Positions 29,249-47,378 of a stretch of 64,000 nucleotides of DNA are shown piece by piece. The notes beneath the pieces were generated by a model, which did not search any database, was not told where the DNA came from, and saw only the letters and a list, made by a program, of their open reading frames with translations. Made by a program: the position numbers and the translations under genes. Numbering within the stretch: the first letter of the stretch is position 1; each line of letters begins with the position of its first letter. The stretch comes from Marinoscillum pacificum (lineage in GTDB: Bacteria > Bacteroidota > Bacteroidia > Cytophagales > Cyclobacteriaceae). The stretch spans positions 62,001 through 126,000 of the forward strand of contig NZ_JAMZMJ010000008.1 of assembly GCF_024714495.1 (NCBI RefSeq), in the 5' to 3' direction.

Positions 29249-29764
29249 AACAGAGATTTTTTAAATTGTATAATGATATTCAATGAACTTCTTTTGATAA
29301 ATGAGATGCTACTGGTTTTCTGATACAAGCCAGGTCAACATGATCGTATTCGCGCTAAAGCTAATCCTAGGGTTTGTAAGCGAGAGAAGTAAATTTCCTG
29401 GGCCACTTTTGGATTCTATAAACTCGACCCAAGTGAAGATGGTCTATCACCTATTTGTTCTGAACGAAAACACAAAAGGTAAACGTTGTAAATGCTTTAC
29501 ACCTAAAGTCACCGATCTGGATATTACAAAAGACCTTATAATAAATGACAAGAACTATTTATAGAGGTGTTTTTTCTGGCTGGGGGATCCAAGTTAATCT
29601 TGGAAAGTACTTTTATCTCGATTAACCTTACCGTGTTCCCTCCATTAAACCTATTCTTTCTTTTTTTGCTTCTTTTTTCCATCAATAGCTCAAACTTTCT
29701 CAAACCAGACACCTGCAAAATCAAATCTATAAATATTGCAAACAGAACCTTAAAATGTTTGCTA
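29249..29764. other. Intergenic stretch at the left edge of an accessory island
   Basis: About 515 bases separate the bestrophin gene from the first island gene. A plus-strand frame of 87 codons (29301-29564) has no recognisable family and is not called. The excisionase-like frame is open upstream of its ATG, but that extension lacks protein-like composition. No tRNA or clear attachment repeat was found. Confidence 0.4.
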
Positions 29765-30079
29765 ATGGAAAATCCTTTTGACGAAATCAACCAACGATTG
29801 GTAAAGATCGAGAACCTCATTCTCGCGAATAACAAAACTAATTCTACCTCCTCAATTCCTGAAACAGAACCTTTCATTGATGTCAAAGAGGCCTCTGAGT
29901 TTCTAGGTGAAGCTATTCCCACTATTTATGGGCGAACGTCCCGACTTGATATCCCATTCTATAAGCGAGGCAAGAAGCTTTATTTCAAAAAATCGGAATT
30001 AACAGAATGGGTTGAGGAAGGAAAAAGCAAGACAAAGGATGCCCTGAGGCAAGAACTAAAGATTGTATCTCGTAAATGA
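29765..30079 (+). CDS. Helix-turn-helix, excisionase/MerR-like DNA-binding protein
   Basis: This is a 104-residue protein from the ATG at 29765 (MENPFDEINQRL). A short N-terminal helix is followed by a winged helix-turn-helix of the excisionase family (about residues 38-85: FIDVKEASEFLGEAIPTIYGRTSRLDIPFYKRGKKLYFKKSEL), with the typical ending WVEEGKSK. Such proteins bend DNA during excision or act as small regulators in mobile elements. Its 5' end recurs as a relic after tRNA-Asn at 13.5 kb. Confidence 0.78.
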   Translation: MENPFDEINQRLVKIENLILANNKTNSTSSIPETEPFIDVKEASEFLGEAIPTIYGRTSRLDIPFYKRGKKLYFKKSELTEWVEEGKSKTKDALRQELKIVSRK

Positions 30080-30306
30080 GTTTATATCTATATGAATCCT
30101 GAAGCTGGGAACACTAGGATTATTTGGAGTCATTTACAGCTAAATGAAAGATAGAGTCCCAAACCCCACCAGAAAACTTACCAAGGTTACCAAATGATTA
30201 TGTTTCAACCTTTTTGAAACTCATTAAACACCAAATAGAACAGATAAAAATAGCTGGTTGAAAACTGCTACTTCATTTCTTAATCTTACCAAAAACACTT
30301 ACCACA

Positions 30307-30504
30307 ATGGAAGAATTCATAGCTACTCCAATGAGCCTCTCAGAGCTTGCAACTGCATATGACGTAAGCACCAAGATCATGAACAAATGGCTTGATCCTC
30401 ACCGAAAAGAAATAGGTAAGCGCATAGGACTTCTATATACGCCTAAGCAGGTCCACAAAATTTATGAATGTCTTGGATACCCTCCTTACCTGGACATCAA
30501 ATGA
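30307..30504 (+). CDS. Small helix-turn-helix-like protein
   Basis: This is a 65-residue protein. SLSELATAYDVSTKIMNKWLDPHRKEIGKR reads like a helix-turn-helix of the terminase-small-subunit or transposon type, followed by a second helix. The stop overlaps the ATG of the next gene (ATGA at 30501-30504), so both are translated together. Likely a regulator or DNA-packaging-type protein of the island; not proven. Confidence 0.55.
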   Translation: MEEFIATPMSLSELATAYDVSTKIMNKWLDPHRKEIGKRIGLLYTPKQVHKIYECLGYPPYLDIK

Positions 30505-31004
30505 AGAAATTTCAACAGGTTACCGAACGCTTCGAAAAAGCTGTAACAAAGCTCCAGGAAAACCTGCAATACCTGGCAGATCAAGATAAGGTCAGCGACC
30601 GATTCCTGAATATCCAAAACAAGATCATCAAGACCCTTATTGATTACCAACATGAGGTGATGAGGACTTTGAAGGCGTATGATCAACTGGCCGTAAAACT
30701 TTCACTAAAGGGATCAGCAGATTATCAACAATTACTGAATGACAAACAGAGTCTGGAGGCGATCTGTATCATTCATGGCATCATAGATTTTACTTCATGG
30801 ATGAACAAGGGCAAATCTTACCTCATACAAGAGGCTATTTATCACTATCAGCATAGCGAAGTACAGTTCTCACATTCTATCATGGAGATGATCAGGAATA
30901 TGGATCCGCATGATCGCGAGCAGCTCTGGAGCCTCTTCAACAAACAAGCTCACCTACGCTGGGAAAAAGCACTATCTGAAATGAAAATGAAGACCTATGC
31001 TTGA
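30501..31004 (+). CDS. Helical protein of unknown function (island)
   Basis: This is a 167-residue, almost entirely helical protein from the ATG at 30501 (MKKFQQVTERF), coupled to the preceding stop. Charged heptads cover residues 1-75 (VTERFEKAVTKLQENLQYL), then a less charged C-terminal helix bundle ending WEKALSEMKMKTYA. Its stop overlaps the start of the VapE-like gene by 8 bases, placing it in the replication module of the island. No family is recognised. Confidence 0.6.
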   Translation: MKKFQQVTERFEKAVTKLQENLQYLADQDKVSDRFLNIQNKIIKTLIDYQHEVMRTLKAYDQLAVKLSLKGSADYQQLLNDKQSLEAICIIHGIIDFTSWMNKGKSYLIQEAIYHYQHSEVQFSHSIMEMIRNMDPHDREQLWSLFNKQAHLRWEKALSEMKMKTYA

Positions 31005-32250
31005 ACATCAGGAAATCAATAAGCAATCCAGCGAAAAAAAGAAAAAACACCACATTCTGGAAGTAAAGGATTATCTGGATCTCAAGTATGAGTTCAGAAG
31101 AAATGATCTTACACTGGAGGTGGAATATCGCCCAGTGGATGAAGAACGCTTTCAGGTACTAGATGAAGCCCGGATAAATTCCATTTGGATTGAACTTCAA
31201 GTAGATGGTTTCAAAGTGTCGGATGCTGTTCTTATCAAGATATTGAACTCTCACCTGGTAAGCAATCACCATCCTTTAAAGGCTTACTTTGAAACACTAC
31301 CAGATCATGATGGGGTTGATCACATTACAAAATTGGCCGAAAGTGTGCAGATCGATGAAGCTTCAGTTGAGAAGGTGCAGCTGCAGCAGCTCTGGAAACC
31401 TTACCTCCAAAAATGGTTAGTGGGAAGTGTCGCCACTGTTTTAGGACAAGGAACTAACCAACTCTGTCTGATTCTAGCAGGTGGCCAAGGAATCGGAAAA
31501 ACTACCTGGTTAAATAGATTATGTCCAAAAGGACTGGAGGACTTTCTCGTCTGCTCCCATATTAATCCATCACTGACCGATAACAACACCGCCAATTACC
31601 TGGCTGAGAAGTGGTTTGTTAATATTGACGACCAGCTGGAGACCATCTTTGGCAAAGACTTTAACAGCATGAAAGCCATTATTACGGCTCCCTTTGTAAC
31701 CAATCGGAAAACCTGGCATAAGTTTAGCCGGAAGCGTGATCGGGTTTGCAGTTTCATGGGGAGTGTGAACAACACCCAATTCCTTACAGACAATGAAAAT
31801 AGGCGGTATTTGGTTTTTAAGGTCAATGGAATTCACTTCGATCACCAAGTGAACATGACCAAAGTATGGGCTCAGGCAATGCATCTATTAAAACAAGGCT
31901 TTCCATATTGGTTCCAGCAGGAAGAGATGCGGATACTCAATGTAATGAACAACCTTTTCCGGCAAAGCTCTCCTGAAGAAGACTGGTTGATACGCTTGTA
32001 TGAGCCCACTACACCAGACAATCCTCTAGCCACCTTCCTGATGCCCTCCGAAATTCTTAGCAAACTCAATGCCTTCTCTAATATGAAGCTCTCAATCCGG
32101 AAGCTGAATATGGCTATGGAAAAACTAGGGTTTAACAACAAAGTATCCAAGAGGATTCATGGTCAGCCCAGGTACGTCCATCCTGTAATCGAGCATCTCT
32201 CTAACTCTGAAATGCAATACCAGCACAGTATTCGCAACGGAGACTCGTAG
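30997..32250 (+). CDS. VapE-like P-loop ATPase (phage/plasmid helicase-primase type)
   Basis: This is a 417-residue protein. A Walker A motif GGQGIGKTTW lies at about residues 162-171, then KWFVNIDDQLETIF (Walker B-like, about 205-218). RDRVCSFMGSVNNTQFLTDNENRRYLVFKV (sensor region and Arg finger, about 245-275) follows. This order is that of the virulence-associated E family, related to superfamily 3 helicases, which replicate integrative elements and satellites. No primase active site is visible in the N-terminal 150 residues, so it may rely on a host primase. It overlaps the preceding gene and ends a four-gene unit. Confidence 0.85.
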   Translation: MLEHQEINKQSSEKKKKHHILEVKDYLDLKYEFRRNDLTLEVEYRPVDEERFQVLDEARINSIWIELQVDGFKVSDAVLIKILNSHLVSNHHPLKAYFETLPDHDGVDHITKLAESVQIDEASVEKVQLQQLWKPYLQKWLVGSVATVLGQGTNQLCLILAGGQGIGKTTWLNRLCPKGLEDFLVCSHINPSLTDNNTANYLAEKWFVNIDDQLETIFGKDFNSMKAIITAPFVTNRKTWHKFSRKRDRVCSFMGSVNNTQFLTDNENRRYLVFKVNGIHFDHQVNMTKVWAQAMHLLKQGFPYWFQQEEMRILNVMNNLFRQSSPEEDWLIRLYEPTTPDNPLATFLMPSEILSKLNAFSNMKLSIRKLNMAMEKLGFNNKVSKRIHGQPRYVHPVIEHLSNSEMQYQHSIRNGDS

Positions 32251-32716
32251 TTGTAAACTCCCCCACTTTACTACCTCTACTTCCTTTTTCTCATCAAAGT
32301 ACTCGAACCAGACATTTCCTGTAAGTGTCTGGTTACTGGTGTTTTACATGATAGGGACAGTGTAATTTGAAGACTCTACTATATTCTTTACTACTCAACT
32401 ACATTACACTTTATAAATCTGTAAATCAATTACTTAGACGTAGTAGCAAGTGTAGTAATACCGTAGTAAAAGTAGTTACTGTAGTAGCGTAGTAAGCATC
32501 GATCATAAAATATCAAACCATGAACCATCCATGGAGTATCCATGGGGATGGTATGGGGTTGACTTTAGGAATCTATAGCCCACTTTTCTCCGACATGGAG
32601 TTTGTTAACATTCACTTTTCACCAAGTTCTGCCAATAGTAGCCCGAACACTCCAAAAGCAGGAAGGCACATTTTCGGGTAGTGACATCTTGCCAGTGATA
32701 AAAATGCTTTTATATA
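32251..32716 (+). promoter_or_regulatory. Non-coding spacer with many GTAGTA-type repeats
   Basis: About 465 bases without a supportable gene lie between the VapE-like ATPase and the next cassette. From about 32383 to 32495 the trinucleotide pattern TAGTA/TACTA recurs more than ten times at irregular spacing. An inverted repeat (CCAGACA ... TGTCTGG, about 32310-32334) lies upstream. The position right after a replication-type ATPase fits an origin or a regulator-binding region. A further open frame at 32602-32826 overlaps the next gene and is not called. Confidence 0.4.
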
Positions 32717-33487
32717 ATGGCAAGACAGAAAGGTATAATGAAATTAGAAGGAACCATCGGGGATGTTTCCTTTTACAAGACCTCCGATGGCTACCTGGCC
32801 AGAGAAAAGGGAGGTGTGGACGCTGACAGGATCAAGAATGATCCAGCCTTTGCTCGTACTCGAGAGAACATCACAGAGTTTGGTAAGGCTGGAAGAGCAG
32901 GAAGGGTTCTGAGAACTGCTTTCAGACTCTTGCTGCAGAATGCAGCGGACAAGAAAGTCACCAGCCGATTAACTAAGGAAATGATCCGTGTAATCCAGGC
33001 TGACTCTACCAACGAACGTGGAAAACGAATAGTTACAGCGGGAAATCAACTACTGCTCAATGGCTTTGATTTTAACATCAATAGCAAATTAAGCGCTACG
33101 TTCTTTACTCCATATGTTCCAGCAATTGATCGAGCTGCAGGCACACTGAGCATCAATATCCCTGAGTTTGTTCCAGGCAATACCATTGTTGGTCCGCAAG
33201 GAGCCACGCATGTGAAAATTGTCTCTGCAGGAGCGGCGATCAATTATGAGGAGGAAACCTTTGAGGTAACTGTAACCAAATCCAATGATCTGGCTTTAGG
33301 ATCTCAGTTGGAGGAAGCTATTGAACTGAGCAATGCAGTTGCTGGGAATAATGCACTAAGTATGTATCTGGTTATGGGATTAGAGTTTACCCAATCTGTA
33401 AATGGAGAGATGTACCCATTGAAAAATGGTGGATTCAATCCACTTTCATTGGTGGCCATTGATCAGCCTGCATTAGAAGAAGGATAG
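32717..33487 (+). CDS. 256-residue island protein of unknown function (MARQKG type)
   Basis: The N-terminus is basic and distinctive (MARQKGIMKLEGTIGDVSFYK, then SDGYLAREKGGVD). A helical part follows (about residues 40-105, FGKAGRAGRVLRTAFRLLLQNAADK), and the rest is beta-rich (about 110-245). No signal peptide or membrane helix is present. I remember similar openings in other Bacteroidota proteins annotated only as hypothetical. It starts a tight five-gene cassette ending at 34694. A structural (shell or virion-like) or DNA-bound role is possible; no function can be assigned. Confidence 0.7.
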   Translation: MARQKGIMKLEGTIGDVSFYKTSDGYLAREKGGVDADRIKNDPAFARTRENITEFGKAGRAGRVLRTAFRLLLQNAADKKVTSRLTKEMIRVIQADSTNERGKRIVTAGNQLLLNGFDFNINSKLSATFFTPYVPAIDRAAGTLSINIPEFVPGNTIVGPQGATHVKIVSAGAAINYEEETFEVTVTKSNDLALGSQLEEAIELSNAVAGNNALSMYLVMGLEFTQSVNGEMYPLKNGGFNPLSLVAIDQPALEEG

Positions 33488-33495
33488 ACTAATTT

Positions 33496-33903
33496 ATGGA
33501 ATTAGTACTCACCCGTAAGTATTTCCCAAAAGGAACCAATGGCCGACTGACGTTTAATGGCAGCATTATTTGCTACACTATAGAACTTCCCTGGTGGAAT
33601 AATCAGCGAAATATATCCTGCATTCCAGAGGGCAGGTATCTAATTGCTAAGCGTCATACGGAAGAAAGAGGATTTCATTTGATCGTGAAAGATGTGCCAG
33701 GAAGAGATGGTATTTTATTTCATCCGGCCAATAATGCATTGAAAGAACTGGAAGGCTGCATAGCTCCAGTTAGCCTACTTACCGGACCAGGTCGTGGAGA
33801 TTCATCCAAGAAAGCCTGTGAAGTCTTGAATAGTCATGTATTCAGTGCCAAACACTTGCGGGAAGATGTATTTCTCAAAATTATCAGCGATGGAAAACAT
33901 TGA
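33496..33903 (+). CDS. DUF5675-like protein
   Basis: This is a 135-residue protein. The core IPEGRYLIAKRH ... VPGRDGILFHPANN ... EGCIAP follows the DUF5675 layout, with His76 and Cys88. The spacing of HxxN and GC resembles the HG/SxGC arrangement of L,D-transpeptidase-like (YkuD) enzymes, so a cell-wall or peptide-bond activity is conceivable. No signal peptide. It starts 8 bases after the preceding stop and overlaps the following gene, so it is co-translated with membrane proteins of the cassette. Confidence 0.7.
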   Translation: MELVLTRKYFPKGTNGRLTFNGSIICYTIELPWWNNQRNISCIPEGRYLIAKRHTEERGFHLIVKDVPGRDGILFHPANNALKELEGCIAPVSLLTGPGRGDSSKKACEVLNSHVFSAKHLREDVFLKIISDGKH

Positions 33904-34135
33904 ATTGACGATGCTTTTCGGAGGCGTGATGTCTCTACTACTTGGCGTAGTGGTTTACTTTCTTAAGCAGCTTTTGTCTGATTTTAAGAAGGTAGAGCAG
34001 GACCTGACACAGGTAAAGAATACGACAGAGATCATTCGAGCTGAATTTAAAGGCATGAATGACCTTTTGAATCAAAGGATCAACTTTCTGGAAAAACGGG
34101 TTGATCGGCTGGAAAATCAAACTTTTAATGATTAA
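33890..34135 (+). CDS. Small single-helix membrane protein with coiled coil
   Basis: This is an 81-residue protein from the ATG at 33890 (MENIELTM), 14 bases inside the end of the DUF5675 gene. A longer start at 33836 is unlikely. One membrane helix (about residues 6-28, LFGGVMSLLLGVVVYFL) is followed by a coiled coil (about 30-78, ending NFLEKRVDRLENQ). The shape is that of phage holin/spanin-like or tail-anchoring proteins. No family is recognised. Confidence 0.6.
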   Translation: MENIELTMLFGGVMSLLLGVVVYFLKQLLSDFKKVEQDLTQVKNTTEIIRAEFKGMNDLLNQRINFLEKRVDRLENQTFND

Positions 34136-34137
34136 AA

Positions 34138-34410
34138 ATGACAAAGTCTGTTAACGATCTGAATTTGGTAGAGCGTGCAAAGGCGCCTACACCCAAATTT
34201 TTCAGGGTACTCCGAAATGTCGGATTGACCCTTGCTGCTGTCAGTGGAGCCGTTCTCGCAGCTCCAGTGACACTACCCGCAGCTCTAATAACTGCAGCTA
34301 CCTATATAGGCGTTGCTGGAGGAGTGCTCACAGCTGTGAGTCAAGTAACTGTGGATGAAGAAGAGTTTGCTCTTCAGGAAGCCGCAGGAAAATCGATTTT
34401 TAAATCTTAA
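34138..34410 (+). CDS. Small two-helix membrane protein, holin-like
   Basis: This is a 90-residue protein with a soluble start (VNDLNLVERAKAPTPKFF). Two alanine/glycine/valine-rich helices follow (about residues 28-46 and 50-68, separated by a turn), with an acidic C-terminus (VDEEEFALQEAAGKS). Size and topology fit class II holins. It begins 2 bases after the preceding stop. Pore function is inferred from shape and neighbours only. Confidence 0.6.
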   Translation: MTKSVNDLNLVERAKAPTPKFFRVLRNVGLTLAAVSGAVLAAPVTLPAALITAATYIGVAGGVLTAVSQVTVDEEEFALQEAAGKSIFKS

Positions 34411-34421
34411 CTATAATAACT

Positions 34422-34694
34422 ATGAAGAATTTTTTAGTATGCTATGACTTGTTTGGGAATAAGAACTACGAAAAATTAAATCACCGAATAGAGCAATACC
34501 CGGTCGCTCAAAAAGTGATGAATACAACTTTCCTCATCAAAACAGAGGAAGATGAGGAAGCATCCAATGTATTGGAGAACCTAAGACAATGCGTGGAAGC
34601 TGACGACAGGATCCTGGTGATTCAGGTAAAAGGAGATTCTGCTCAGTTCAATTCACTAACTAGTGATTCCGGATTGAGCGTATTGATTAAGTGA
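34422..34694 (+). CDS. Cas2/SinR-like small protein
   Basis: This is a 90-residue protein. It begins MKNFLVCYDLFGNKNYEKL and continues TTFLIKTEEDEEASNVLENL and DDRILVIQVKGDSAQF. This matches the ferredoxin-like pattern of the 'SinR family' small proteins related to Cas2/VapD: a YDL start, a helix, an edge strand with T-x-F-L-I-K-T, and a DD-x-hhh-hh end. No CRISPR array or cas1 is present. It is the last gene of the cassette, and a strong terminator follows. Nuclease activity is uncertain. Confidence 0.65.
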   Translation: MKNFLVCYDLFGNKNYEKLNHRIEQYPVAQKVMNTTFLIKTEEDEEASNVLENLRQCVEADDRILVIQVKGDSAQFNSLTSDSGLSVLIK

Positions 34695-34713
34695 GCCATA
34701 TTTTTTTTGTTTA

Positions 34714-34742
34714 GGACAGGGCACCAGGTGCCCTGTTTTTTT
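34714..34742 (+). terminator. Rho-independent terminator of the island cassette
   Basis: ACAGGGCACC and GGTGCCCTGT form a 10-bp perfect stem around one base, followed by T7. It lies 20 bases after the Cas2/SinR-like stop. On the other strand it is preceded by A-rich sequence and could also stop the convergent small genes. Confidence 0.9.
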
Positions 34743-34882: not shown

Positions 34883-35173
34883 TCAGGGATAGTGCTTATC
34901 TACAATCTGCAAACCTACACGCAAGTCATTAATTCGAAGAAACGGAATGACTGATCCAACCAGGTCCTTTTTGAAATATCCAGATTTCCACAAAGCAAAA
35001 CAAAGCCAATAGAACAGTTGGCGATTCTCTTCGAACTCAGTACAAACCAGATAACAATTAGGGCAAGGTTTGTCAAGTGGTTTTCCAGCATTCAGGCCTT
35101 TCGATAATACATAAAAATGAGGAGTTGTTGGATTTTCCTTTCCGGAGAAAGTGGATACACGGTATCTAAACAT
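34883..35173 (-). CDS. DUF6943-like small protein
   Basis: This is a 96-residue protein with SKGLNAGKPLDKPCPNCYLV, LFYWLCFALWKSGYF and VGSVIPFLRINDL. From memory this combination is the mark of the Bacteroidota DUF6943 family, usually in mobile elements. The CPNC pair could bind a metal or form a disulfide. It converges on the Cas2/SinR-like gene and closes the island on the right. Function is unknown. Confidence 0.6.
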   Translation of the reverse strand: MFRYRVSTFSGKENPTTPHFYVLSKGLNAGKPLDKPCPNCYLVCTEFEENRQLFYWLCFALWKSGYFKKDLVGSVIPFLRINDLRVGLQIVDKHYP

Positions 35174-35209: not shown

Positions 35210-35620
35210 GTCACCGCCTGCGGCGCTTGCCTAGCCGGCCGCATATTCCAAAAGAAAAAAAAGAGAAAAAAAGAAAGCTCAGCTATTAGGTGGCACCTTG
35301 GTCTCAGCAAGGAGGAACGGAATAAGTCTTATGCAGGAAATTCCTTGATGCGACCAGTTGGTAGTTTCCAAAAAATGCAGAAACTTTTACAATTAAGAAA
35401 TTCTAATAGTTAACCAATCTGTGCCACCTAACTTGACTTCCTTTTTTGAATTATTCGGTCATTCCTTAGTTTTTAGGGAGGTTTTTCCAAAAGAAAAAAG
35501 ACTAGGCGTCCCCGACTAGCCGTCCGCAAGAGAAAAAAGAAAGCTTTTTTCTCAGCAGGCGATGGCAGGCCAGGCAAGGAGTAACGGAATAAAAGAAAGC
35601 GTTGCGGGATGGGAGTGTTT
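35210..35620. repeat. Two copies of a purine-rich dispersed repeat with GC-rich inserts
   Basis: TTCCAAAAGAAAAAA ... AAGAAAGCT ... CTCAGCA ... AAGGAGgAACGGAATAA occurs at about 35246-35330 and again at about 35485-35605. The second copy carries extra GC-rich pieces absent from the first, including CTAGCCGTCCGCA at 35516-35528. A related word, CTAGCCGGCCGCA, lies directly before the first copy (35231-35243). No gene is supported here. Confidence 0.6.
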
Positions 35621-35680
35621 ATGCCGTAGTTCTTTAGCCAGACTCCAATTGCTTGTTTCCGGTTAACTACTCTTTATAAA

Positions 35681-36141
35681 CTATGTTGCCAAATCTGCAA
35701 TTGAGAAATTATTAAATCCTACCTGTTGTGATAAAGTAACCAATTGTCCACGATGATAGGTGGAGTGGTTAATAAAGTGCAGAAATGTTTGCCAAAAGAT
35801 CATTTTTCCTTCTCTTCCGTTTGGATAAATAAACCTGATGTGGTCTTCATAGTTCTCTTGAGGAAAGTTTTCGATAAAGCTTTTTATATCAACGTATGTT
35901 TTCTTCCATATCTGGATCACGTCTACCTTGGTCCCATTAAAATCAGAAGATAAATAGATAGGGTTATGAACGTTTGTCCAAAAGTCAAACCAAATCTATT
36001 TTTTGCACTGACTTGGTGTATTGAGGTTTTTTAATGCTATTGAAACTGCTTATAATGGTCTGATTCCATTGGTCATCATGGATTTGATCTAACCATTCCA
36101 TGGCAAGATTCTTAGCCAAATGAATAAAAATTTTTTTACGT
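35681..36141 (-). pseudogene. Broken DinB-family gene
   Basis: The C-terminal part (IWFDFWTNVHNP through FLHFINHSTYHRGQLVTL and beyond) is a good DinB-like helical bundle end, including the metal-binding HxxxH. It is open only from about 35999. The N-terminal part (IHLAKNLAMEWLDQI ... IISSFNSIKK) lies directly upstream in another frame. A frame change and a TAG stop at an A6 run near 36000 separate them. No single intact product is possible from this sequence. Confidence 0.7.
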
Positions 36142-36188: not shown

Positions 36189-37052
36189 CTAATCACTCAA
36201 AAGCTGTTTGGAAACGGTCATCCTTTGTTTTTGGAAATGTTTTGGACTTAACCCATAGATTCTTTTGAAGGACTGAGAAAAGCTAGAGTGATTTTCATAT
36301 CCTACTTTGTAGAAAATTTCACTCGGGTTTTCGTTTTGCAATAACATTGATGCTGCGATTTGCATTTTCCTCTGCAGGAAATATTTGCTAGGAGTAGTTT
36401 TGTAGAGCTTGACGAATTTTCTTTTAAAAGTGGAAATGCTCGTATGGCATAAAAAGGCCAACTCGTTCAAGGTAAGATTATTTGTGATATTTTCTTCAAC
36501 GGCTTTTTTTATTTCCATTTCTGAATATTCTTCCTGCATTTTTGATTTGAAAGACATCATTTGCTGAGGGTTTTTCTCCAAGAGATACAGCATCAATTCT
36601 TCAAACTTTATTTGTAGTAAAAGGGGCAAGATATCAGATGGTTTCCGCTGAATTATTCTAAGTGAAGAAATGTAGTTCATGATAAAGTCATCCTTAGGAA
36701 ATACAAGGAAAGGCTTTTCTTGGGACGTTATTGGAGATACGCTATCAATAAGGGTTTGATAATTAAGAAAGAAGTTTAGTAGATGCTGATTATCGAAGAA
36801 GAAAAGAGTACTCCGGTATTCTTTATCTATTGCTAGTTTTTCTGTCATTAAACAATTGTTTGATGATAGAATGACAAAGTGGGTATCTCTAACAATTGTG
36901 CTAGCACTTGCATAATGTAAAACCTTCTCACCTTTTTCTAAAAAGTTGATGAAGTTACTTGGAGGTACGAATTTGTTTCTTTGAGCTGGCTTTACAGAGA
37001 CATAACTTCTTATACTTAAAGCGTTCAGGTCATTTTCGTTTATTCTTTGCAC
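36189..37052 (-). CDS. AraC-family transcriptional regulator (AraC_E-like N-terminus)
   Basis: This is a 287-residue protein. The C-terminal double helix-turn-helix spans about residues 185-280 (LTLNELAFLCHTSISTFKRKFVKLYKTTPSKYF ... IFYKVGYENHSSFSQSFKRIYGLSPKHF). The N-terminal half is a cupin-like sensor with FVILSSNNCLM. Unlike the two AraC genes at 37.1 and 40.4 kb it is not a close paralogue of them. It probably regulates the oxidoreductase genes nearby or an unlinked target. Confidence 0.88.
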   Translation of the reverse strand: MQRINENDLNALSIRSYVSVKPAQRNKFVPPSNFINFLEKGEKVLHYASASTIVRDTHFVILSSNNCLMTEKLAIDKEYRSTLFFFDNQHLLNFFLNYQTLIDSVSPITSQEKPFLVFPKDDFIMNYISSLRIIQRKPSDILPLLLQIKFEELMLYLLEKNPQQMMSFKSKMQEEYSEMEIKKAVEENITNNLTLNELAFLCHTSISTFKRKFVKLYKTTPSKYFLQRKMQIAASMLLQNENPSEIFYKVGYENHSSFSQSFKRIYGLSPKHFQKQRMTVSKQLLSD

Positions 37053-37137
37053 TTTCTTCAGTGTTATTCACGTACTGATACGTTTAATCTGGTAATGGTA
37101 CGACCTTATGAATAAAGGGCCTCATGAGTGAGAAAAT

Positions 37138-38052
37138 TTAGTTAAAGGATCGTTTAAACTCCAAAGGAGATATGTTCGTTTTTGATTTGAAGAACTTACT
37201 AAATGACTGTGGATGCTCAAAACCCAATAAGTATGCAACTTCACTTATTGATAAATTGGTCGTTGATAGCCTTTCCTTTGCTTTGGTAATGAGTTTGCTC
37301 TGTATGTGTTGTTGTGTAGTTTGCCCTGTTAACGTTTTCAGCATACTACTCAGGTAGTTAGGCGAGACATTGAGCCTACTGGCCATGTATTGAACTGTTG
37401 GTAAACCTTGATCTCTTATTGCATCAGTTTGTAACCAATCAGCCATGACTTCTTCAAATTTTTCGAGCAGCTGATGGCTACTCTTTTTTCGTGTGACGAA
37501 CTGCCGTTCATAGAATCTTTTGGCATAAATGAGCAGCATTTCTATTTGTGCGATGATGAGTTCCTGGCTGAATTTGTCAATATTAGATTGGTATTCACTT
37601 TCTATTTTCTGCAATAACTCTACGATAACAGTTTCCTCTTTATCTGAAAGGAATAGTGCTTCATTGACCGAATAGTGAAAGAACTCATAGTCATTGATCT
37701 TTTTAGCGAGATTGGTGTTCCATAGAAAGTCAGGATGGATGAGCAATAACCACCCAGTGGGCTCCACTACAACATTGTGATTGATTTCTATTTTTAAAAA
37801 TTGTAACGGGGAGACAAAGGTTAGTACTCCTGAGTCAAAGTCATACTGCTGTTGGCCGTAATTAAACTTGGCATTGACATTTCGCTTCAATCCAATCGAA
37901 TAAAAATTCTGGATCCATTTCAACTCTTCTGTATCTACCGGGTAAGCTACTCTGCTATAGTCTATCAGACTAATCATCGGGTGCTCGGGAGGAGGTAGTT
38001 TACAAAATGAATGAAATTCAGAAAGTGAATTGAATCGAAATGTCTCTTCCAT
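37138..38052 (-). CDS. AraC-family regulator, paralogue A
   Basis: This is a 304-residue protein: N-terminal cupin-type sensor (about residues 30-130, FNYGQQQYDFDSGVLTFVSPLQ) and C-terminal AraC domain (about 215-303). The latter has YMASRLNVSPNYLSSMLKTLTGQTTQQHI and ISEVAYLLGFEHPQSFSKFFKSKT. It is highly similar end to end to the gene at 40428, and its C-terminus to a fragment at 47735. It sits upstream in strand order from a broken DinB gene and downstream of an Atu4866-type gene (20-base gap). Confidence 0.9.
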   Translation of the reverse strand: MEETFRFNSLSEFHSFCKLPPPEHPMISLIDYSRVAYPVDTEELKWIQNFYSIGLKRNVNAKFNYGQQQYDFDSGVLTFVSPLQFLKIEINHNVVVEPTGWLLLIHPDFLWNTNLAKKINDYEFFHYSVNEALFLSDKEETVIVELLQKIESEYQSNIDKFSQELIIAQIEMLLIYAKRFYERQFVTRKKSSHQLLEKFEEVMADWLQTDAIRDQGLPTVQYMASRLNVSPNYLSSMLKTLTGQTTQQHIQSKLITKAKERLSTTNLSISEVAYLLGFEHPQSFSKFFKSKTNISPLEFKRSFN

Positions 38053-38071
38053 TTAATGATAATTTACTTGA

Positions 38072-38332
38072 TTATAATTCTTTGTACAAAACCATACCCG
38101 CATGATAGAGCACTCCTTCTTTGAATTCTCCATCAGCTGTAAAGCCTGTATCGTCTTTGTAATCGATGTGGTTGCCTGTTACCTGATAGCTACCATGGTA
38201 GGCACTTTTACGGCTACCACGTGCTTCATCATATCTGTTATTTGGGAGTAGTTCATGACGAATGTAACCGTCTTCTGTTACCCACATTCCCAGATATTCT
38301 TTGGTTAGTTCTATTGTTTTTTCTGGTTTCAT
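38072..38332 (-). CDS. Atu4866-domain small protein
   Basis: This is an 86-residue protein with GMWVTEDGYIRHELLPNNRYDEARGSRKSAYHGSY, GNHIDYKDDTGFTADGEF and VLYHAGMVLY, the full pattern of the Atu4866 family, a compact lipocalin-like beta barrel. It is usually found beside AraC regulators and SDR enzymes, as here. It is probably co-transcribed with the following AraC gene. Ligand and role are unknown. Confidence 0.85.
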   Translation of the reverse strand: MKPEKTIELTKEYLGMWVTEDGYIRHELLPNNRYDEARGSRKSAYHGSYQVTGNHIDYKDDTGFTADGEFKEGVLYHAGMVLYKEL

Positions 38333-38400
38333 TATTTACTTCTTTTTGGAAAGAAACTGTCGCTTCTCTTTCTTAAAAGTTTTAGTCTTAAGTAAGAAAT

Positions 38401-38429
38401 AAGGCTGGAAACATGCCTTTTCCAGCCTT
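38401..38429 (-). terminator. Terminator after the first SDR gene
   Basis: AAGGCTGGAAA and TTTCCAGCCTT form an 11-bp stem 10 bases after the SDR stop on the minus strand. The T tract after it is short, so activity is likely but not certain. Confidence 0.65.
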
Positions 38430-38438
38430 CTGAATAAA

Positions 38439-39353
38439 CTAAACGGCCCCTGTTTTTACTTCTAACAGGTGTGAATAGTTCATAATTCGAAATACTCGTT
38501 CTGTTAGCGTTTCTCTAACAGCATTTCCGGGTTCTGCGAGGTAATCTGAGTAGTCCACTGTACTCCGCATTGGTTTTTCACCAACAGGCAGCTTCAAGAT
38601 TTCAGCGATTTTATCAGCTACACCCTGAATGGGTGCTTCACCAAATCGAAAAAGGTTTCTCAATCCTGGCTCGTAGTTATCATAATCTTTCTGCAACCTA
38701 TCGTATTGTTTCAGTATTTCTTTATCACCAGGGAATTCAGCTGTTTCAAAGTGAGAGGTGCCCTCCATGAAAACTCCGGGCATAATGATGCAAGTTTCTA
38801 TGCCAAACTGACCCACTTCGTAAGCGGTGTTTTCTGCTAATGCATCAAATGCGGCTTTGCCCATTACATAAGGTGTCATAAACGGTGCTGTCAGGTTTGT
38901 GATCCCACTACCCACATAAATAAGTGTTCCCTTTTTCTGCTTGCGCATGTAAGGAAGTGCAGCCCTGTTTAGTCGGTGAGCTCCAACGGCATTCGTATTT
39001 AATGAACTCAACAATTGTTCAGGAGTGTAGCCCTCTGCAAACCCGATGAAAAGGTGTGCGGCATTCTGAACGATCACATCAATGTAACCTTCTCTAACAA
39101 CAATCTTATCAACTGCTGTCTGGCAAGATTCTTCCAGATGGATGTCTAAGTCTACAATTTCAACTGATTTTCCATGACCTTCTACATAGCTTCGTAATTT
39201 TGACGACTTATGTGTATTCCTTCCGTTTGGATCTCGAATACCAGCATAAACTTTATAGCCTTCCAGAGCAAGGGTTTGTGCGGTGTGTAAACCCATCCCT
39301 GATCCCGCACCAGTTATTAGTACTGTTTTTCTATTTGTTTCCATTTTTTCCAA
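38439..39353 (-). CDS. Short-chain dehydrogenase/reductase (SDR)
   Basis: This is a 304-residue classical SDR. The cofactor motif TGAGSGMG (near residue 15) is followed by an Arg in the second strand (GIRDP), which suggests NADP. NAAH replaces the usual NNAG, Ser lies in YVGSGITN, and the catalytic YxxxK is YVMGKAAFD. It ends with a longer C-terminal tail (about 60 residues) than minimal SDRs. It starts 3 bases after the stop of the next SDR gene, forming a pair. Substrate is unknown. Confidence 0.88.
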   Translation of the reverse strand: MEKMETNRKTVLITGAGSGMGLHTAQTLALEGYKVYAGIRDPNGRNTHKSSKLRSYVEGHGKSVEIVDLDIHLEESCQTAVDKIVVREGYIDVIVQNAAHLFIGFAEGYTPEQLLSSLNTNAVGAHRLNRAALPYMRKQKKGTLIYVGSGITNLTAPFMTPYVMGKAAFDALAENTAYEVGQFGIETCIIMPGVFMEGTSHFETAEFPGDKEILKQYDRLQKDYDNYEPGLRNLFRFGEAPIQGVADKIAEILKLPVGEKPMRSTVDYSDYLAEPGNAVRETLTERVFRIMNYSHLLEVKTGAV

Positions 39354-39356
39354 GTT

Positions 39357-40208
39357 TTAATTAGTTGATTCTACTTCTGTAGCCGTACCTATTTGTTCGT
39401 TTTTGGCCAATTCTGCCTGAATGAGTTCCATTTTTAACCCGGCATAGTGGTAAGCATCCTTTCCGAGAAACAAATGACCAGGAGGCGTTTGCTGTTGACA
39501 TATCTTAATCAATGCGTCAGCTGCCTTTTCAGGATCATTTGGTTGGTTGCCATCGATTTGTCCTAAATGAGCTTGTTCTAGTTCTCGGGCTGATTCATAG
39601 GCCTCAATGGGCTTTTCAGGTGTCTTTACAGATCCTTTCGATAAGAAATTCGTTCTGAAGTATCCAGGATAAACCAAGGTAACATTTACGTTAAATGCCT
39701 TCATTTCTTCAGCTAATGCTTCTGTAAACCCTGCAACAGCAAATTTGGTAGAGCAGTATATCCCAAACCCAGGAAAGTTCCCTACATATCCGCCTATGGA
39801 GGATATGTTGAAAATGTGACCAGACTTTTGCTTTCTCAAATGAGATGTGACATTTCGAATGACATTCAGATATCCGAAGACATTTACATCATAACTGTTT
39901 TTGACCTCCTGGTCGCTTAGTTCTTCCAATGTCCCGATCTGACCAAAGCCAGCATTGTTTACGACGACATCAATCACTCCAAAGTGATCAATTGTTTGGA
40001 TTATTGCTTCTTTGACGTCTTTGTCATTGGTCACATCCATCTCCAAGGGTAGAAAGGTCTCGGATGCATTGCCCAGCTCCTGTATTAGAGCATTTAAACT
40101 TCTAGAGGTCCCTGCTACGTAATAGCCGTTTTCGATTAATTTCTTTGCCAGCGCAAGACCGAGCCCTCTGGAAGCACCGGTGATAAACCATACTTTTTTA
40201 GTCTTCAT
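39357..40208 (-). CDS. Short-chain dehydrogenase/reductase (SDR)
   Basis: This is a 283-residue classical SDR, counted from the ATG at 40208 (MKTKKVWFITG). The cofactor motif is TGASRGLG. NNAGFG marks the central strand, Ser lies in FNISSIGG and the active site is YCSTKFAVAG (YxxxK). It is the first gene of a two-gene unit with the SDR at 38439. An AraC regulator (40428) lies upstream on the same strand, 220 bases away. Substrate is unknown. Confidence 0.9.
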   Translation of the reverse strand: MKTKKVWFITGASRGLGLALAKKLIENGYYVAGTSRSLNALIQELGNASETFLPLEMDVTNDKDVKEAIIQTIDHFGVIDVVVNNAGFGQIGTLEELSDQEVKNSYDVNVFGYLNVIRNVTSHLRKQKSGHIFNISSIGGYVGNFPGFGIYCSTKFAVAGFTEALAEEMKAFNVNVTLVYPGYFRTNFLSKGSVKTPEKPIEAYESARELEQAHLGQIDGNQPNDPEKAADALIKICQQQTPPGHLFLGKDAYHYAGLKMELIQAELAKNEQIGTATEVESTN

Positions 40209-40427
40209 TTTTTTTGATTTCGTTTTTCTAAATGCAAGACAAAGATGAAGACCGTACAAACGTTGGACTTTGCTCGATCTACGGATGTTGTAGCCGAAAC
40301 AACTATTCTTATATTAGAGAATAGAAAAAATGATAATTGGGGGCATCCAAAGCATAAATGCCGTTTGAGCATAGACTGCTTAGGTTTTTCAACTTAGAAA
40401 ATATGCCCTTCTTGATCGATTATTCGT

Positions 40428-41339
40428 TCAGTTAAAGGATTGCCTGAATTCAGAAGGAGTCAAGTCAGTTTTACTCTTAAATAATTTACTAAAAGATTGT
40501 AGGTGTTCAAAGCCTAATTCATAGGCGATTTCACTCACTGATAGATCAGTGGTTGACAGTCTTTCCTTTGCTACATCAATTATTTTATCTTGTATAAAAT
40601 GTTTGGTGCTTTTTCCTGTTAAATTTTTGAGCAAGCGACTCAAATAATTAGCGGATAGATTCAATTCATTAGCAAAATACTGAACTGTTGGTATTGGCTT
40701 TTCTATTACATGTTCTTTTCTATAATAAGCCACTAGTAATTCCTCAAATTGGTTTAAGATCGTGTGATTTGTGATTTTTCGTGTAGTAAATTGACGCTGA
40801 TAAAAACGTTCTGAATAGGTCAATAATAACATTAACAGCGCAATGATCACCTCTTGACTAAAATGATCAATACTTGCCTGATATTCTTGTGCAATACTTT
40901 CCATAACACCAACAATCATTTTTTCCTCTCTGTCAGACAAATGCAGTGCTTCATTGATTTTGTATTCAAAATACTCATAGTCCTTTATCTTTTTGGAAAG
41001 GGGAGTGCCCCAAAGGAAATCGGGATGTACCAGTAATAGCCATCCTTTATGTTTTAATTCCTCATCAGCTCTGAATTCAAAAGAAAGCACTTGTTTTGGT
41101 GACATAAAATGCAATACCCCTTCATCAAAATCATATGCTTGCTGTCCATATTTTAATTTGGCATTAAAATCCTTCTTTAAAGCGATGGAGTAGAAGTCAT
41201 TGGTGATAGTTGTGGGACTGGCCTGATGATGCTTGATATCCTCAAATTTCACTAGACTAATAAGTGGATGTAGGGGTTTCTGCAAATCCATAACCTTATG
41301 GTATTCGGTTATGGATTTTATGTGATATGGTTTTGACAT
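40428..41339 (-). CDS. AraC-family regulator, paralogue B
   Basis: This is a 303-residue protein colinear with the gene at 37138 (for example KYGQQAYDFDEGVLHFMSPKQ and FLWGTPLSKKIKDYEYFEYKINEAL in the sensor half; YFANELNLSANYLSRLLKNLTGKSTKHFI and ISEIAYELGFEHLQSFSKLFKSKTDL in the DNA-binding half). It is the likely regulator of the SDR pair downstream or of the NmrA-like gene 16 bases upstream. The pair of paralogues suggests duplication of a regulator plus oxidoreductase unit. Confidence 0.9.
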   Translation of the reverse strand: MSKPYHIKSITEYHKVMDLQKPLHPLISLVKFEDIKHHQASPTTITNDFYSIALKKDFNAKLKYGQQAYDFDEGVLHFMSPKQVLSFEFRADEELKHKGWLLLVHPDFLWGTPLSKKIKDYEYFEYKINEALHLSDREEKMIVGVMESIAQEYQASIDHFSQEVIIALLMLLLTYSERFYQRQFTTRKITNHTILNQFEELLVAYYRKEHVIEKPIPTVQYFANELNLSANYLSRLLKNLTGKSTKHFIQDKIIDVAKERLSTTDLSVSEIAYELGFEHLQSFSKLFKSKTDLTPSEFRQSFN

Positions 41340-41355
41340 AGTACGAAATTAGATT

Positions 41356-42219
41356 TTATAATCCAAAAAGTGTTTTTAACCCTTCCTGTAGTGTAGTTGG
41401 TTTGCGTCCAAGCTTAGCTTCTAAATCATTCGTTATTTCATCTTCCTGTCCGTTTTTTATATCCGTATTGAATTCAACCACTTTTTGAAGCATACTTTGC
41501 GATATTCCTGTTGGTCTCATTCTTTCTTGAAAGGTAGAAATATCTACTGGATGGTATTTTACTTCTTTTCCAGATAGTATTGTCAATGCCTCGGCAACAT
41601 CATAAAAGGAATAAGCTTCGGAGTTTGTGAATTTGTATGTTTTGTTTTCACAAATCTCATTTGATAGCACGTTAGCTATTGCTTCACCCATTTCTTTTCT
41701 TAGAGCAAAAGCTACCTTTCCATCCCCAGCAGGTTGGAAAATACCGCTTTCAAACACTTTTTTGCCAACAAAAATTGGAAGTACATCCATATACAAGGTG
41801 TTTCTAAAAATGGTATAGTTTAATCCACTTGCTTTGATATAATCTTCTGTGAGGAAGTGTTCTTCCATCAGATCGTGAGCGAGCGTTTCCCTATTTCGCA
41901 TTGCTCTACTCGTATAAGCAATATTTGCAACTCTTGATTTTTTAGCAATATCAATGACATTTCTGTGCTGCTGCATTCTGTCACCCTGGTCGCCTGCAGA
42001 AATTAAAAGAACGGTATCTACCTTCTTCATTGCACTTTCAAGAGAGGATACATTATCATAATCACCTGGAAAAACATTTATTCCTTTTGCCTTTATTTCT
42101 GGTATTTTTTCTTCTTCTCGAACCAGGGCCGAAATATTTTTAGCAGGAATATTTTTTACTAATGTTTCAATGACCGCACTACCCAGATTTCCGGTGGCAC
42201 CTGTTACTAGTATTTGCAT
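41356..42219 (-). CDS. NmrA-like NAD(P)-binding oxidoreductase
   Basis: This is a 287-residue atypical SDR. ILVTGATGNLGSAVIE (residues 3-18) is the dinucleotide-binding start. VLLISAGDQGDRMQQHRNVIDIAKKS and NYTIFRNTLYMDVLP follow, as in NmrA/QorB-type proteins (NADPH-dependent quinone reductase or redox sensor). The classical YxxxK is absent. It stands directly upstream of AraC paralogue B in the same direction, so both may be one transcript. Confidence 0.85.
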   Translation of the reverse strand: MQILVTGATGNLGSAVIETLVKNIPAKNISALVREEEKIPEIKAKGINVFPGDYDNVSSLESAMKKVDTVLLISAGDQGDRMQQHRNVIDIAKKSRVANIAYTSRAMRNRETLAHDLMEEHFLTEDYIKASGLNYTIFRNTLYMDVLPIFVGKKVFESGIFQPAGDGKVAFALRKEMGEAIANVLSNEICENKTYKFTNSEAYSFYDVAEALTILSGKEVKYHPVDISTFQERMRPTGISQSMLQKVVEFNTDIKNGQEDEITNDLEAKLGRKPTTLQEGLKTLFGL

Positions 42220-42359: not shown

Positions 42360-42840
42360 CATCCATCAGGTAAAGGAGCCCTCAGCTAGCGTAAGCATCG
42401 CGGGCCTTAGCGGGCGCCACCGCCAGCCTGCCAGAAGATAATGATCCGCCAGTTGGCGGAAAATGGCTGGGAGTGCGTACAGCTTTGGTTCGAGTGTTGG
42501 GAAAGTGCTGCTGTACGGTACTGGTGGTGGCCGCAGGCCCGCACAAACTATGGGCAGTGGCTGGGCTGGGAGCTGGTTATTTATTTCAGCTACGAACGAG
42601 TTATTGAATAAGAATGAGAAACATCCCCCTACCCCCTTCAAAGGGGGAAATGACCTGCTCCTAGAACAGAGAGAACTGCCGTGATGGCCAGACAGAAGGC
42701 AAAGCAGAGGGTGTGACATACTCCCCTTCGACTTGGCTCAGGGCAGGCGGGGATCTTTAGGCAGACAGTGTTCCGCCAGCTGGCGGATCTCTGGCTAGTA
42801 TGGCGCAAGCTCTGCCGCTCTGGCTGGGCAGCACTCCGCT
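42360..42840. repeat. GC-rich intergenic repeat cluster
   Basis: About 480 bases contain several repeat pieces: the palindrome TCCGCCAGyTGGCGGA twice (42445-42460 and 42772-42787), a CCCCCT/AGGGGG hairpin at about 42616-42640 and a CTTCGAC...CTCAGGGCAGG piece at about 42727. The base composition is much richer in G+C than the neighbours. Open frames across it are by-products of the repeats. Confidence 0.65.
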
Positions 42841-42866
42841 TTACCTGCGTGAATCCGCTAATTTGA

Positions 42867-43736
42867 TTAACCTAAATAGGATTTAAGAAGTGCACCTCCA
42901 CTTGGGTTGTGCTGAAGCTTGCGAATAGCGCACTCTTTAATCTGACGCACACGTTCTCTTGTCAGATCAAATCGCTCTCCAATATCATTTAGTGTCATGC
43001 TTGGCTCATCATTGAGACCGTAAAAAAGAATTAATACCTGTGATTCACGGAATGTCAGTACCTTAAAAGCACTGCGAATATCTGTCTTTAACGAATTTTC
43101 CATGGAATTTTCCTCAGGATTATGCCCTTGTGGGTCAACCATTACATCTAAGAGATTTACAGCTTCATCAGCCATAAAAGGAGCATCTAGAGAAGAAGTT
43201 TTAGCCCCCATCTGTTTAATATCCGTAATTTGATCATCGGGTAGATCCATCACTTCAGCCAATTCCCCATCTGTTGGTTCTCGTTCAAGCCTTTGCTCTA
43301 AGAGTGCTAAAGAATTGATCAGTTTATTGTAACTATTCACTCTGTTTAAAGGCTGTCTCACTGTTCTAGAGTTTTGAGAAATCGCTGATACCATCGATTG
43401 ACGTATCCACCATACAGCATAGGAAATGAACTTAAACCCTCTGGTTTCATCAAACCGAGTAGCTGCCTTTATTAGACCAATGTTTCCCTCACTGATCAAA
43501 TCAAGAAGCGTAATATTTGGAAAGCCACGATCATATTGCTTTGCTACGGAAACAACAAACCTTAAATTGGCTTTGGTCAATTTTTCCAGCGCTTGTTCAT
43601 CTCCTTCTCGTATACGCTGCGTCAGCCGAACTTCTTCTTCAGCAGAAATCAGCTGCACTTTGTCAATCTCCTGAAAATACCGCTCTAATGAATGCGTTCT
43701 TTTCGTTATTTGAACAAGTATTTTAAGTTGTTTCAT
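42867..43736 (-). CDS. Sigma-70 family RNA polymerase sigma factor (RpoD/RpoS-like paralogue)
   Basis: This is a 289-residue sigma factor with regions 1.2 (SLERYFQEIDKVQLISAEEE), 2.1-2.4 (ANLRFVVSVAKQYDRGFPNITLLDLISEGNIGLIKA and FKFISYAVWWIRQSM), 3 and 4. Region 4 reads LTFRESQVLILFYGLNDEPSMTLNDIGERFDLTRERVRQIKECAIRKL. It has the size of the Bacteroidota primary sigma factor, but the DRGFPNITLLD and IKQMGAKTSS parts differ from the usual housekeeping consensus. It therefore looks like a secondary paralogue. It lies back to back with a cold-shock gene, suggesting an alternative sigma factor for cold or stress. Confidence 0.88.
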   Translation of the reverse strand: MKQLKILVQITKRTHSLERYFQEIDKVQLISAEEEVRLTQRIREGDEQALEKLTKANLRFVVSVAKQYDRGFPNITLLDLISEGNIGLIKAATRFDETRGFKFISYAVWWIRQSMVSAISQNSRTVRQPLNRVNSYNKLINSLALLEQRLEREPTDGELAEVMDLPDDQITDIKQMGAKTSSLDAPFMADEAVNLLDVMVDPQGHNPEENSMENSLKTDIRSAFKVLTFRESQVLILFYGLNDEPSMTLNDIGERFDLTRERVRQIKECAIRKLQHNPSGGALLKSYLG

Positions 43737-43840
43737 TGCTTGGTGTAGTTAGAGAAAAATCAAGGGTGAAAGGCACTTGAATAACTCTGGTTTGGATGAA
43801 CAGTATCCAAATTATTACGTTTCTTGGCGAAACCTATTTA

Positions 43841-43875
43841 CATTAAAAAACCATCACTTAGGATGGTTTTTTAAT
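43841..43875. terminator. Terminator after the cold-shock gene
   Basis: TTAAAAAACCATC and GATGGTTTTTTAA form a 13-bp stem around a short loop, with A and T tracts on both sides, so it can work in either direction. It lies 9 bases after the minus-strand cold-shock stop and separates it from the sigma-factor gene. Confidence 0.85.
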
Positions 43876-43883
43876 GTGTGATT

Positions 43884-44078
43884 TTAGTTTACAACTTTTA
43901 CGTTGACAGCATTCATTCCTTTTTTTCCTCTTTCCAGGTCATAGGTTACTTTATCATTTTCACGGATGTCATCAATCAGTCCTGATTCATGAACAAACAC
44001 ATCTTCTCTTGACTCTGTGGGACTAATAAATCCAAAACCCTTGGAATTATTGAAAAACTTTACAGTTCCTTCTTGCAT
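43884..44078 (-). CDS. Cold-shock domain protein (CspA family)
   Basis: This is a 64-residue single OB-fold protein. RNP1 is KGFGFI and RNP2 VFVHESG; it starts MQEGTVKFFN. Members bind single-stranded RNA/DNA and melt structures at low temperature. It is one of two in the window; the other (47162) lies in the divergent operon. Both share the EGTVKFFN start and the RG(K/N)xG...VKV end. Confidence 0.95.
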   Translation of the reverse strand: MQEGTVKFFNNSKGFGFISPTESREDVFVHESGLIDDIRENDKVTYDLERGKKGMNAVNVKVVN

Positions 44079-46942: not shown

Positions 46943-46958
46943 TCAAATAAGATATCGT

Positions 46959-47159
46959 ATGGCAAAGTCACAGAACAAATTCATGAAAAAACAACGCGCT
47001 ATTGGCAAGAACAAAAAGCGTGAAGAAAAACTCCAAAGGAAACGAGATCATAAAGCCACTAAGTCTAGTGGGAAGCTGGAAGACATGATCGCTTATATAG
47101 ACTTTAATGGCAATATTCAGAGCACACCGGGTATTGAACAAAATTTAATAACACAATAA
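46959..47159 (+). CDS. Small basic protein of the cold-shock operon
   Basis: This is a 66-residue protein with a lysine/arginine-rich helix (residues 4-40, FMKKQRAIGKNKKREEKLQRKRDHK). A conserved-looking end follows (LEDMIAYIDFNGNIQSTP). Similar proteins with the 'AYVDxxGNIxxTPP' tail are, from memory, found next to Csp genes in Bacteroidota. It may bind RNA. It starts 16 bases after the helicase stop and ends 2 bases before the Csp start. Confidence 0.75.
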   Translation: MAKSQNKFMKKQRAIGKNKKREEKLQRKRDHKATKSSGKLEDMIAYIDFNGNIQSTPGIEQNLITQ

Positions 47160-47161
47160 AA

Positions 47162-47353: not shown

Positions 47354-47378
47354 TTGTATTGATATTCGGTTACTGAGA

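Follow-up and report, generated by a model that had tools for sequence, protein, structure and literature searches.

A little-described cassette family of Bacteroidota with a core protein that lacks a Pfam model and a conserved folded RNA at its end

A stretch of 64,000 nt from Marinoscillum pacificum (contig NZ_JAMZMJ010000008.1; hereafter the window, whose numbering gives all coordinates below) carries an accessory cassette built around a 256-residue protein that we call MARQKG. A preliminary description of this DNA placed nine open reading frames (ORFs) between 29765 and 34742, and all nine are present. Its helix-turn-helix (HTH), VapE-like and DUF5675-like assignments hold in Pfam (E-values below), the His/Cys pair of the DUF5675 protein (HPANNALKELEGCI) occurs in the window protein and in full-length relatives, and hydropathy gives one membrane-like segment for the coiled-coil protein and two for the holin-like protein. 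The analysis supports its view that the five genes from MARQKG to the Cas2-like gene (its second unit, here the MARQKG operon) lie within an accessory cassette that carries a VapE ATPase, DUF5675, small membrane proteins and a Cas2-like protein. Searches of Pfam, PHROGs and NCBIfam gave no integrase, capsid protein or terminase for any of the nine, as had been stated, and no tail protein; the only matches in that direction were of excisionase-type HTH domains. The end of the cassette, however, is not at 34742 as proposed: DUF6943, two copies of a structured RNA (RNA-A) and a second structured element (RNA-B) lie beyond it, and belong to the cassette or mark its far end. The features are as follows.

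29765..30079, + strand: HTH_17 (excisionase/MerR-like) protein, 104 aa (Pfam HTH_17, 5.7e-9)
30307..30504, + strand: orf2, small protein, 65 aa (86% identical in the second copy, on contig C13)
30501..31004, + strand: orf3, helical protein, 167 aa (start uncertain, 30468 being an alternative)
30997..32250, + strand: VapE-type ATPase/helicase, 417 aa, optional module (Pfam VapE-like, 1.4e-29; phrog_1313, 2.6e-41)
32717..33487, + strand: MARQKG protein, 256 aa, core of the family (family search, conservation, fold)
33496..33903, + strand: DUF5675 protein with His/Cys pair, 135 aa (Pfam, 2.8e-29)
33890..34135, + strand: CC, one-segment membrane protein with coiled coil, 81 aa (hydropathy)
34138..34410, + strand: 2TM, two-segment holin-like membrane protein, 90 aa (hydropathy)
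34422..34694, + strand: Cas2-like/phrog_1090 protein, 90 aa (phrog_1090, 2.5e-13)
34713-34739, + strand: terminator-like hairpin with T tail
34883..35173, - strand: DUF6943, short 96-aa form without the C-terminal helix of the family (3.2e-33, profile positions 1-81 of 131)
35252..35453, + strand: RNA-A, structured RNA (E 1.5e-16; 89.7 bits in a covariance model that includes this sequence)
35528..35683, + strand: partial second RNA-A (33.6 bits, E 5.5e-5; outside the sequence set of the model)
36189..42219, - strand: three AraC-type regulators, two SDR enzymes and one NmrA-like protein (cargo or resident DNA possible)
42367..42851, + strand: RNA-B, structured element of about 490 nt
42857/42858: junction (the right side matches contig C11 and genome G180, the left side does not)

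The hairpin bears out the terminator that had been described behind the operon; between 34600 and 35800 three terminator-like sites were found against 1.2 expected.

MARQKG is a large family without a Pfam model. It occurs in 75 of the 196 genomes of the host's family that we surveyed, some of which have 13 listed places; the 91 places analysed below are the strongest matches (E down to 1.6e-37), weaker listed ones being excluded. A wider search found at least 539 relatives, and the best 80 of these 539, which we kept as loci, include Reichenbachiella, Ekhidna, Fulvivirga, Marivirga, many Flavobacterium and some metagenome-assembled genomes. Pfam returned nothing at E<=1 for the window protein and nothing below 0.1 for 13 members. 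Among plasmid records there is a single relative, from Marivirga.

The predicted MARQKG structure (mean predicted local distance difference test score, pLDDT, 83.6) comprises helices at residues 36-94 and a beta sandwich at 134-249. Residues 1-32 mostly score below 50, yet are among the most conserved. The preliminary description had looked to a defined fold for this protein; the fold search yields one only in the sense of a weak, generic Ig-like sandwich, the best match in the Protein Data Bank (PDB) being ApaG (E 1.1e-3, template modelling score 0.23 on the query). MARQKG as a capsid protein was dropped, with no viral fold match at E<=1e-3. The N-termini of MARQKG and DUF6266 look alike by eye; a profile comparison did not bear out homology (hhalign probability 0.5%). 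DUF6266 nonetheless pairs with DUF6943 and RNA-A at other loci.

The core order of the operon is conserved at many unrelated places, as the preliminary description had proposed to check. Neighbourhoods were compared in 85 stretches (the 80 loci, the window and four others from its genome; numbered stretches are given as L below). Clustering placed h67, a divergent 67-aa protein upstream of MARQKG, in 71 of them, DUF5675 in 71, DUF6943 in 57, 2TM in 55 and c58, a 58-aa protein, in 39. The usual order is divergent h67, MARQKG, DUF5675, 2TM and c58, then often opposite-strand genes and DUF6943. Across the 196 genomes, DUF5675 lies directly behind MARQKG at 64 of the 91 places (the DUF5675 matches used are a selection, with many others in longer frames), and DUF6943 lies on the opposite strand within 6 kb at 16. 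The most compact arrangement (L156) packs recombinase, h67, MARQKG, c58 and RNA-A into 2.7 kb behind a tRNA-Ser gene. In four stretches (L074, L076, L077, L120) a two-gene insert, which we take to be HipA-like, sits between h67 and MARQKG as a second cargo slot.

Two proposed members of the cassette are not standard ones. VapE had been joined with the MARQKG operon into one system. All 31 VapE matches were checked, and only 4 of the 91 MARQKG places have one within 8 kb; the four genes from HTH_17 to VapE are therefore an optional add-on. The HTH and VapE replication module is found in the window, in the C13 copy (L006) and in two genomes (L157, L158), and orf3-VapE stands with a recombinase and without MARQKG in L159. 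Among the mapped stretches, the Cas2-like protein is listed only in the window and the C13 copy (L175 is the window itself, not an independent locus). Its proposed Cas2/SinR-like character is in part upheld: it matches phrog_1090 at 2.5e-13, whereas the Pfam Cas2 match (7.1e-5, 23.4 bits) falls just under the cut-off of 23.8. A CRISPR Cas2 is likewise not indicated by NCBIfam (18.6 against 24.5 bits), nor was cas1 seen among the scanned neighbours.

The genome of the window contains five MARQKG places: two in full cassettes, two lone genes at 52-53% identity and one distant relative at 31%. The second full cassette, on C13, speaks against a chance grouping of the genes. It differs from that of the window in a mosaic fashion, with about 75-85% identical DNA over VapE and MARQKG and more than 90% from DUF5675 to DUF6943; the HTH_17 proteins are 43% identical. 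Nonsynonymous divergence (dN) between the two copies is well below synonymous divergence (dS) for seven of ten genes, and lower in every differing gene that allowed an estimate of the two (for DUF6943, 0.018 and 0.197). For orf2 and VapE dS is saturated, and the CC pair is uninformative because it is nearly identical. The two lone genes, on C17 (L007) and C11 (L008), lie in repeat-rich stretches that are 90% similar and have no RNA-A matches. The distant relative on C28 (L005/L009) has 263 aa and is next to a gene for a 336-aa protein; many of the 196 genomes have similar 24-175 matches, and genes of this type may be resident.

In seven relatives (L149, L156, L161, L166, L043, L096 and L109, L166 being the same locus as L042) the order is tRNA gene, tyrosine recombinase, h67, MARQKG, with the recombinase beside an intact tRNA gene. 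Behind the operon, the slot between c58 and DUF6943 carries interchangeable genes, including NLR-like and other defence types: relatives have 38 ORFs of at least 100 aa there, of which 13 were scanned against Pfam and 10 against PADLOC. These include NACHT and nSTAND3 proteins with Mrr-type domains, a Viperin-associated NERD protein (1.2e-142), the candidate defence protein PDC-S73 (4.7e-262), an ABC-3C protein with a PDC-M68B partner, a CoiA_N protein and a flavin oxidoreductase with a heavy-metal domain. Mercuric reductase is a presumptive name, taken from sequence or domains, that no family match returned. The scanned ORFs of L064 and others had no match in Pfam or PADLOC. The window has nothing in the corresponding slot, from the Cas2-like gene to DUF6943.

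DUF6943 also leads a life apart from MARQKG. The survey kept 39 of 43 DUF6943 matches, setting aside the four weakest, which have no MARQKG place and no orphan RNA nearby; 23 of the 39 have no MARQKG within 8 kb. Several of these MARQKG-free genes pair with DUF6266 (L137-L140, L218). DUF6943-DUF6266 pairs with a divergent RNA-A and no MARQKG (L137-L140, L125, L218) form a sister cassette type. The predicted DUF6943 fold (pLDDT 91.8) weakly resembles HsdS, the specificity subunit of type I restriction systems, which takes ranks 1, 2, 4 and 5 among the PDB matches at E 0.016 to 0.14, none of them below 1e-3. Unlike HsdS, it corresponds to one half only, and neighbourhood maps show no restriction genes beside it. 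A literature search returned no paper on DUF6943 or DUF6266; for DUF5675 it listed two phage papers.

RNA-A is strongly conserved and folded. Its place is past DUF6943 or, in minimal forms, directly after c58. It is about 200 nt long in the window and about 150-290 nt among relatives. For 42 Flavobacterium-type sequences the consensus fold reaches -36.3 on the MARQKG strand against -23.2 on the opposite strand, and several pairs covary (one column pair reads GC 18, AT 12, TA 6, CG 4). A two-helix model of 20 diverse sequences gives 77.8% paired cells against 65.6% in shuffled alignments, 44 double changes against 17 and covariation of 0.337 against 0.162; none of 500 shuffles scored as high on the three measures, and sliding columns by 1-3 lowered all three. 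These tests are a partial control, because the structure was written by hand after reading the alignment; the 42-sequence fold is independent of it. An automatic consensus fold of the 20 diverse sequences gave no pairs, and the window RNA-A alone folds moderately better than its shuffles (z -1.72, 14 of 200 as good).

A covariance model built from the 20 sequences found RNA-A at 68 places in 43 of the 196 genomes. The scores of the window, C13, L041/L157 and some other copies arise partly by construction, because those sequences are in the model. MARQKG lies within 12 kb of 36 of the 68 places, 13 have DUF6943 only and 19 have neither. The arrangement is strictly oriented: MARQKG precedes RNA-A on its own strand in 36 of 36 pairs, and DUF6943 is on the opposite strand on the 5' side in 33 of 33 (tandem RNAs counted twice). 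In the genome of the window, strong matches are confined to the two cassettes, plus the partial window copy. A weak match on the minus strand at 29412-29678 (26 bits, E 0.0027), immediately before the cassette, could reflect T-rich DNA of low complexity or a relic of the left end. A regular-expression search also found RNA-A in 50 stretches, nine of which list no MARQKG.

Rfam returned only two tRNAs for the window, L111, L104 and L050. A search with the RNA-A stretches at E<=5 gave low matches, none of which reached its gathering score. Judged from its sequence, RNA-A is a conserved folded RNA that is absent from Rfam at gathering scores. Our searches of the literature on Bacteroidota islands and structured RNAs found nothing recognisable as this element, an absence limited to these searches. 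HMP_4078, a candidate structured RNA of Bacteroidetes near integrase and D5 domains, resembles RNA-A in being palindromic and near integrases, and differs in its length of 109 bp; the comparison is one of descriptions, not sequences (PMC8040213).

Orphan RNA-A copies (18 of the 19 lie in the stretches compared) stand, by eye, beside RHS-like, colicin-like, DUF932/SSB-like, DUF6266 or HTH genes; the names RHS, colicin, DUF932 and SSB are our assumption from sequence and domains, with no family match of those names. In L202, L203, L205, L208 and L209, from genomes of the host's family, RNA-A is flanked by RHS-core/toxin-tip-like fragments and, across from them, by 290-aa tyrosine recombinases, which looks like recombinase-driven exchange of toxin tips. 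L209 contains a direct duplication of 7.3 kb (99.8%) with one RNA-A per copy, and its tandem unit measures 8.1 kb.

RNA-B recurs once in the genome, on C13, 104 bases downstream of RNA-A. Relatives with the same strand were found in L149, L150 and L218, which all belong to the same genus. RNA-B folds well (z -3.85), the consensus of four sequences has 116 pairs, 10 with double changes, and Rfam gave nothing at E<=1. Just beyond RNA-B the change is sharp: from 42858 rightward, the window is 92.3% identical to C11 over 4563 columns and 78.1% identical to G180. C11 and G180 match each other across the junction and the window does not; 42857 is therefore the last position of foreign or rearranged DNA. 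The genes at 36189-42219 are possibly cargo; the C11 counterpart, too, has an AraC-like gene to the left of the junction. The matching DNA at 42858-47406 is a 4.5-kb duplication (92%) of L231 9050-13599 in C11, with sigma-70 factor and desaturase genes.

The protein family, its conserved block, the recombinase-tRNA setting of the seven relatives, the variable cargo, the associated RNA and the right junction are all directly observed. Our reading is that the cassette is probably the core of a cargo-carrying integrative element of Bacteroidota, with the MARQKG operon as a release-type late module. The recombinase, in cis in the relatives and acting in trans or lost for the window copy, would insert and excise the element, with VapE as an optional replication module. 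DUF5675, possibly an enzyme of what we take to be the L,D-transpeptidase type acting on the wall, would act late with the holin-like proteins and open the envelope. MARQKG, with its conserved flexible N-terminus and Ig-like sandwich, would work with them in release or transfer. RNA-A would end the operon as a non-coding RNA, with a possible part in its control or as a tag for recognition. The release role of the operon, taken alone, we put at well below an even chance.

Several observations weigh against this reading. Neither excision nor transfer nor release was observed. The late role, the less certain part, draws on domain types and order alone, and the L,D-transpeptidase idea has a Pfam Tlde1 match of 0.073 as its sole support. 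MARQKG stands alone or without DUF5675 at 27 of the 91 places. The window cassette has no recombinase, and neither it nor the C13 copy has a tRNA gene beside it in L175 and L006 (the window tRNAs are at 3300 and 13210 only). In favour of the reading, 48 of 74 loci have a tRNA-3'-end-like motif no more than 420 bp past h67, but the motifs were picked after inspection and the count has no background. Attachment (att) repeats were absent by exact match from the window and C13 copies, and none was convincing in eight relatives; a regular-expression hunt in the stretches compared found none with tRNA fragments at both ends. On the left, no relative of the flanking gene in the genus exceeds 37%, and for want of an orthologue this gene gives no access to an empty site.

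The cassette could instead be a degenerate or minimal prophage or satellite, with MARQKG a capsid or virion protein and DUF5675 and 2TM an endolysin and holin. VapE and the phage-type gene content, the order of membrane protein and wall enzyme, and the setting in relatives, where a small divergent regulator and a recombinase accompany a tRNA gene, would all fit. However, one tblastn of 50,697 phage records found no MARQKG, and one pattern scan of 2.9 million viral contigs yielded 93 pattern-matching stretches and no relative. Together with the missing viral fold match and the lack of capsid and terminase among the nine scanned proteins, this leaves such an origin unlikely. We give as little weight to a secreted-effector or contact-killing module, in which DUF5675 would be the effector, MARQKG its carrier and the membrane proteins export or immunity factors. 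The toxin-like RHS or colicin neighbours of RNA-A and the weak Tlde1 match speak for it, but that match is far below its cut-off, and the operon has no variable toxin/immunity pair, the variable genes lying outside it. Defence-type cargo accompanies relatives, which might suggest that the MARQKG operon is itself an anti-phage immunity module. This we consider very improbable: the defence genes sit in the cargo rather than the core, and PADLOC gave no strong match to any protein of the operon, with Cas2-type models alone matching the Cas2-like protein (3.8e-5 at best) and values above 1e-3 for the other proteins.

For RNA-A itself, an alternative is that it marks cassette ends as DNA, in the form of a folded single-strand site, or is simply a strong terminator there. 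Its T-rich tails on both strands, its tandem copies in several stretches, its apical part, large and exchangeable and ranging from near nothing to more than 100 nt, and its contexts with recombinases and quite different neighbour genes all suit such a site. On comparison with integrons, RNA-A is hairpin-like, stands at cassette ends and in some contexts has recombinases nearby. Against a DNA site, the fold is favoured on the + strand, which also has G-U pairs, and the strand is fixed relative to MARQKG and to DUF6943. We regard the DNA site as possible but doubtful. A wider proposal, equally tentative, is that RNA-A is a new structured-RNA class or a single-strand recombination site with an exchangeable apical hairpin. 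It would be a common tag that several unrelated Bacteroidota mobile elements use next to exchangeable cargo: MARQKG operons, DUF6943/DUF6266 pairs, RHS-like toxin parts and DUF932/SSB-like genes. MARQKG would then characterise the largest family of this kind, and its near absence from viral and plasmid collections would explain why it was overlooked.

Phage satellites with VapE-type replication modules are known. The window, the C13 copy and two genomes share their HTH protein and VapE ATPase; unlike them, 87 of the 91 MARQKG places have no VapE, and no helper-related or capsid gene was recognised. The recombinase-bearing relatives resemble tRNA-inserted genomic islands with a tyrosine recombinase, phage-defence elements among them; islands of this kind are described in general terms in PMC12595487. 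They have a recombinase beside a tRNA gene and variable defence cargo, and no transfer genes were seen. They differ in their fixed core of MARQKG, DUF5675 and membrane proteins and in RNA-A; moreover, direct-repeat ends were not found, and the window copy lacks the recombinase.

The cassette family is little described so far. If the integrative-element reading is right, more than one-third of the sampled genomes of one Bacteroidota family would carry a mobile family that is also common in Flavobacterium. Its cargo would include genes for defence and resistance, and it would have gone unrecorded in the phage and viral collections that we searched. RNA-A would then be a marker for finding such elements, whether it acts as a regulator, as a packaging or recognition tag, or as a recombination site.

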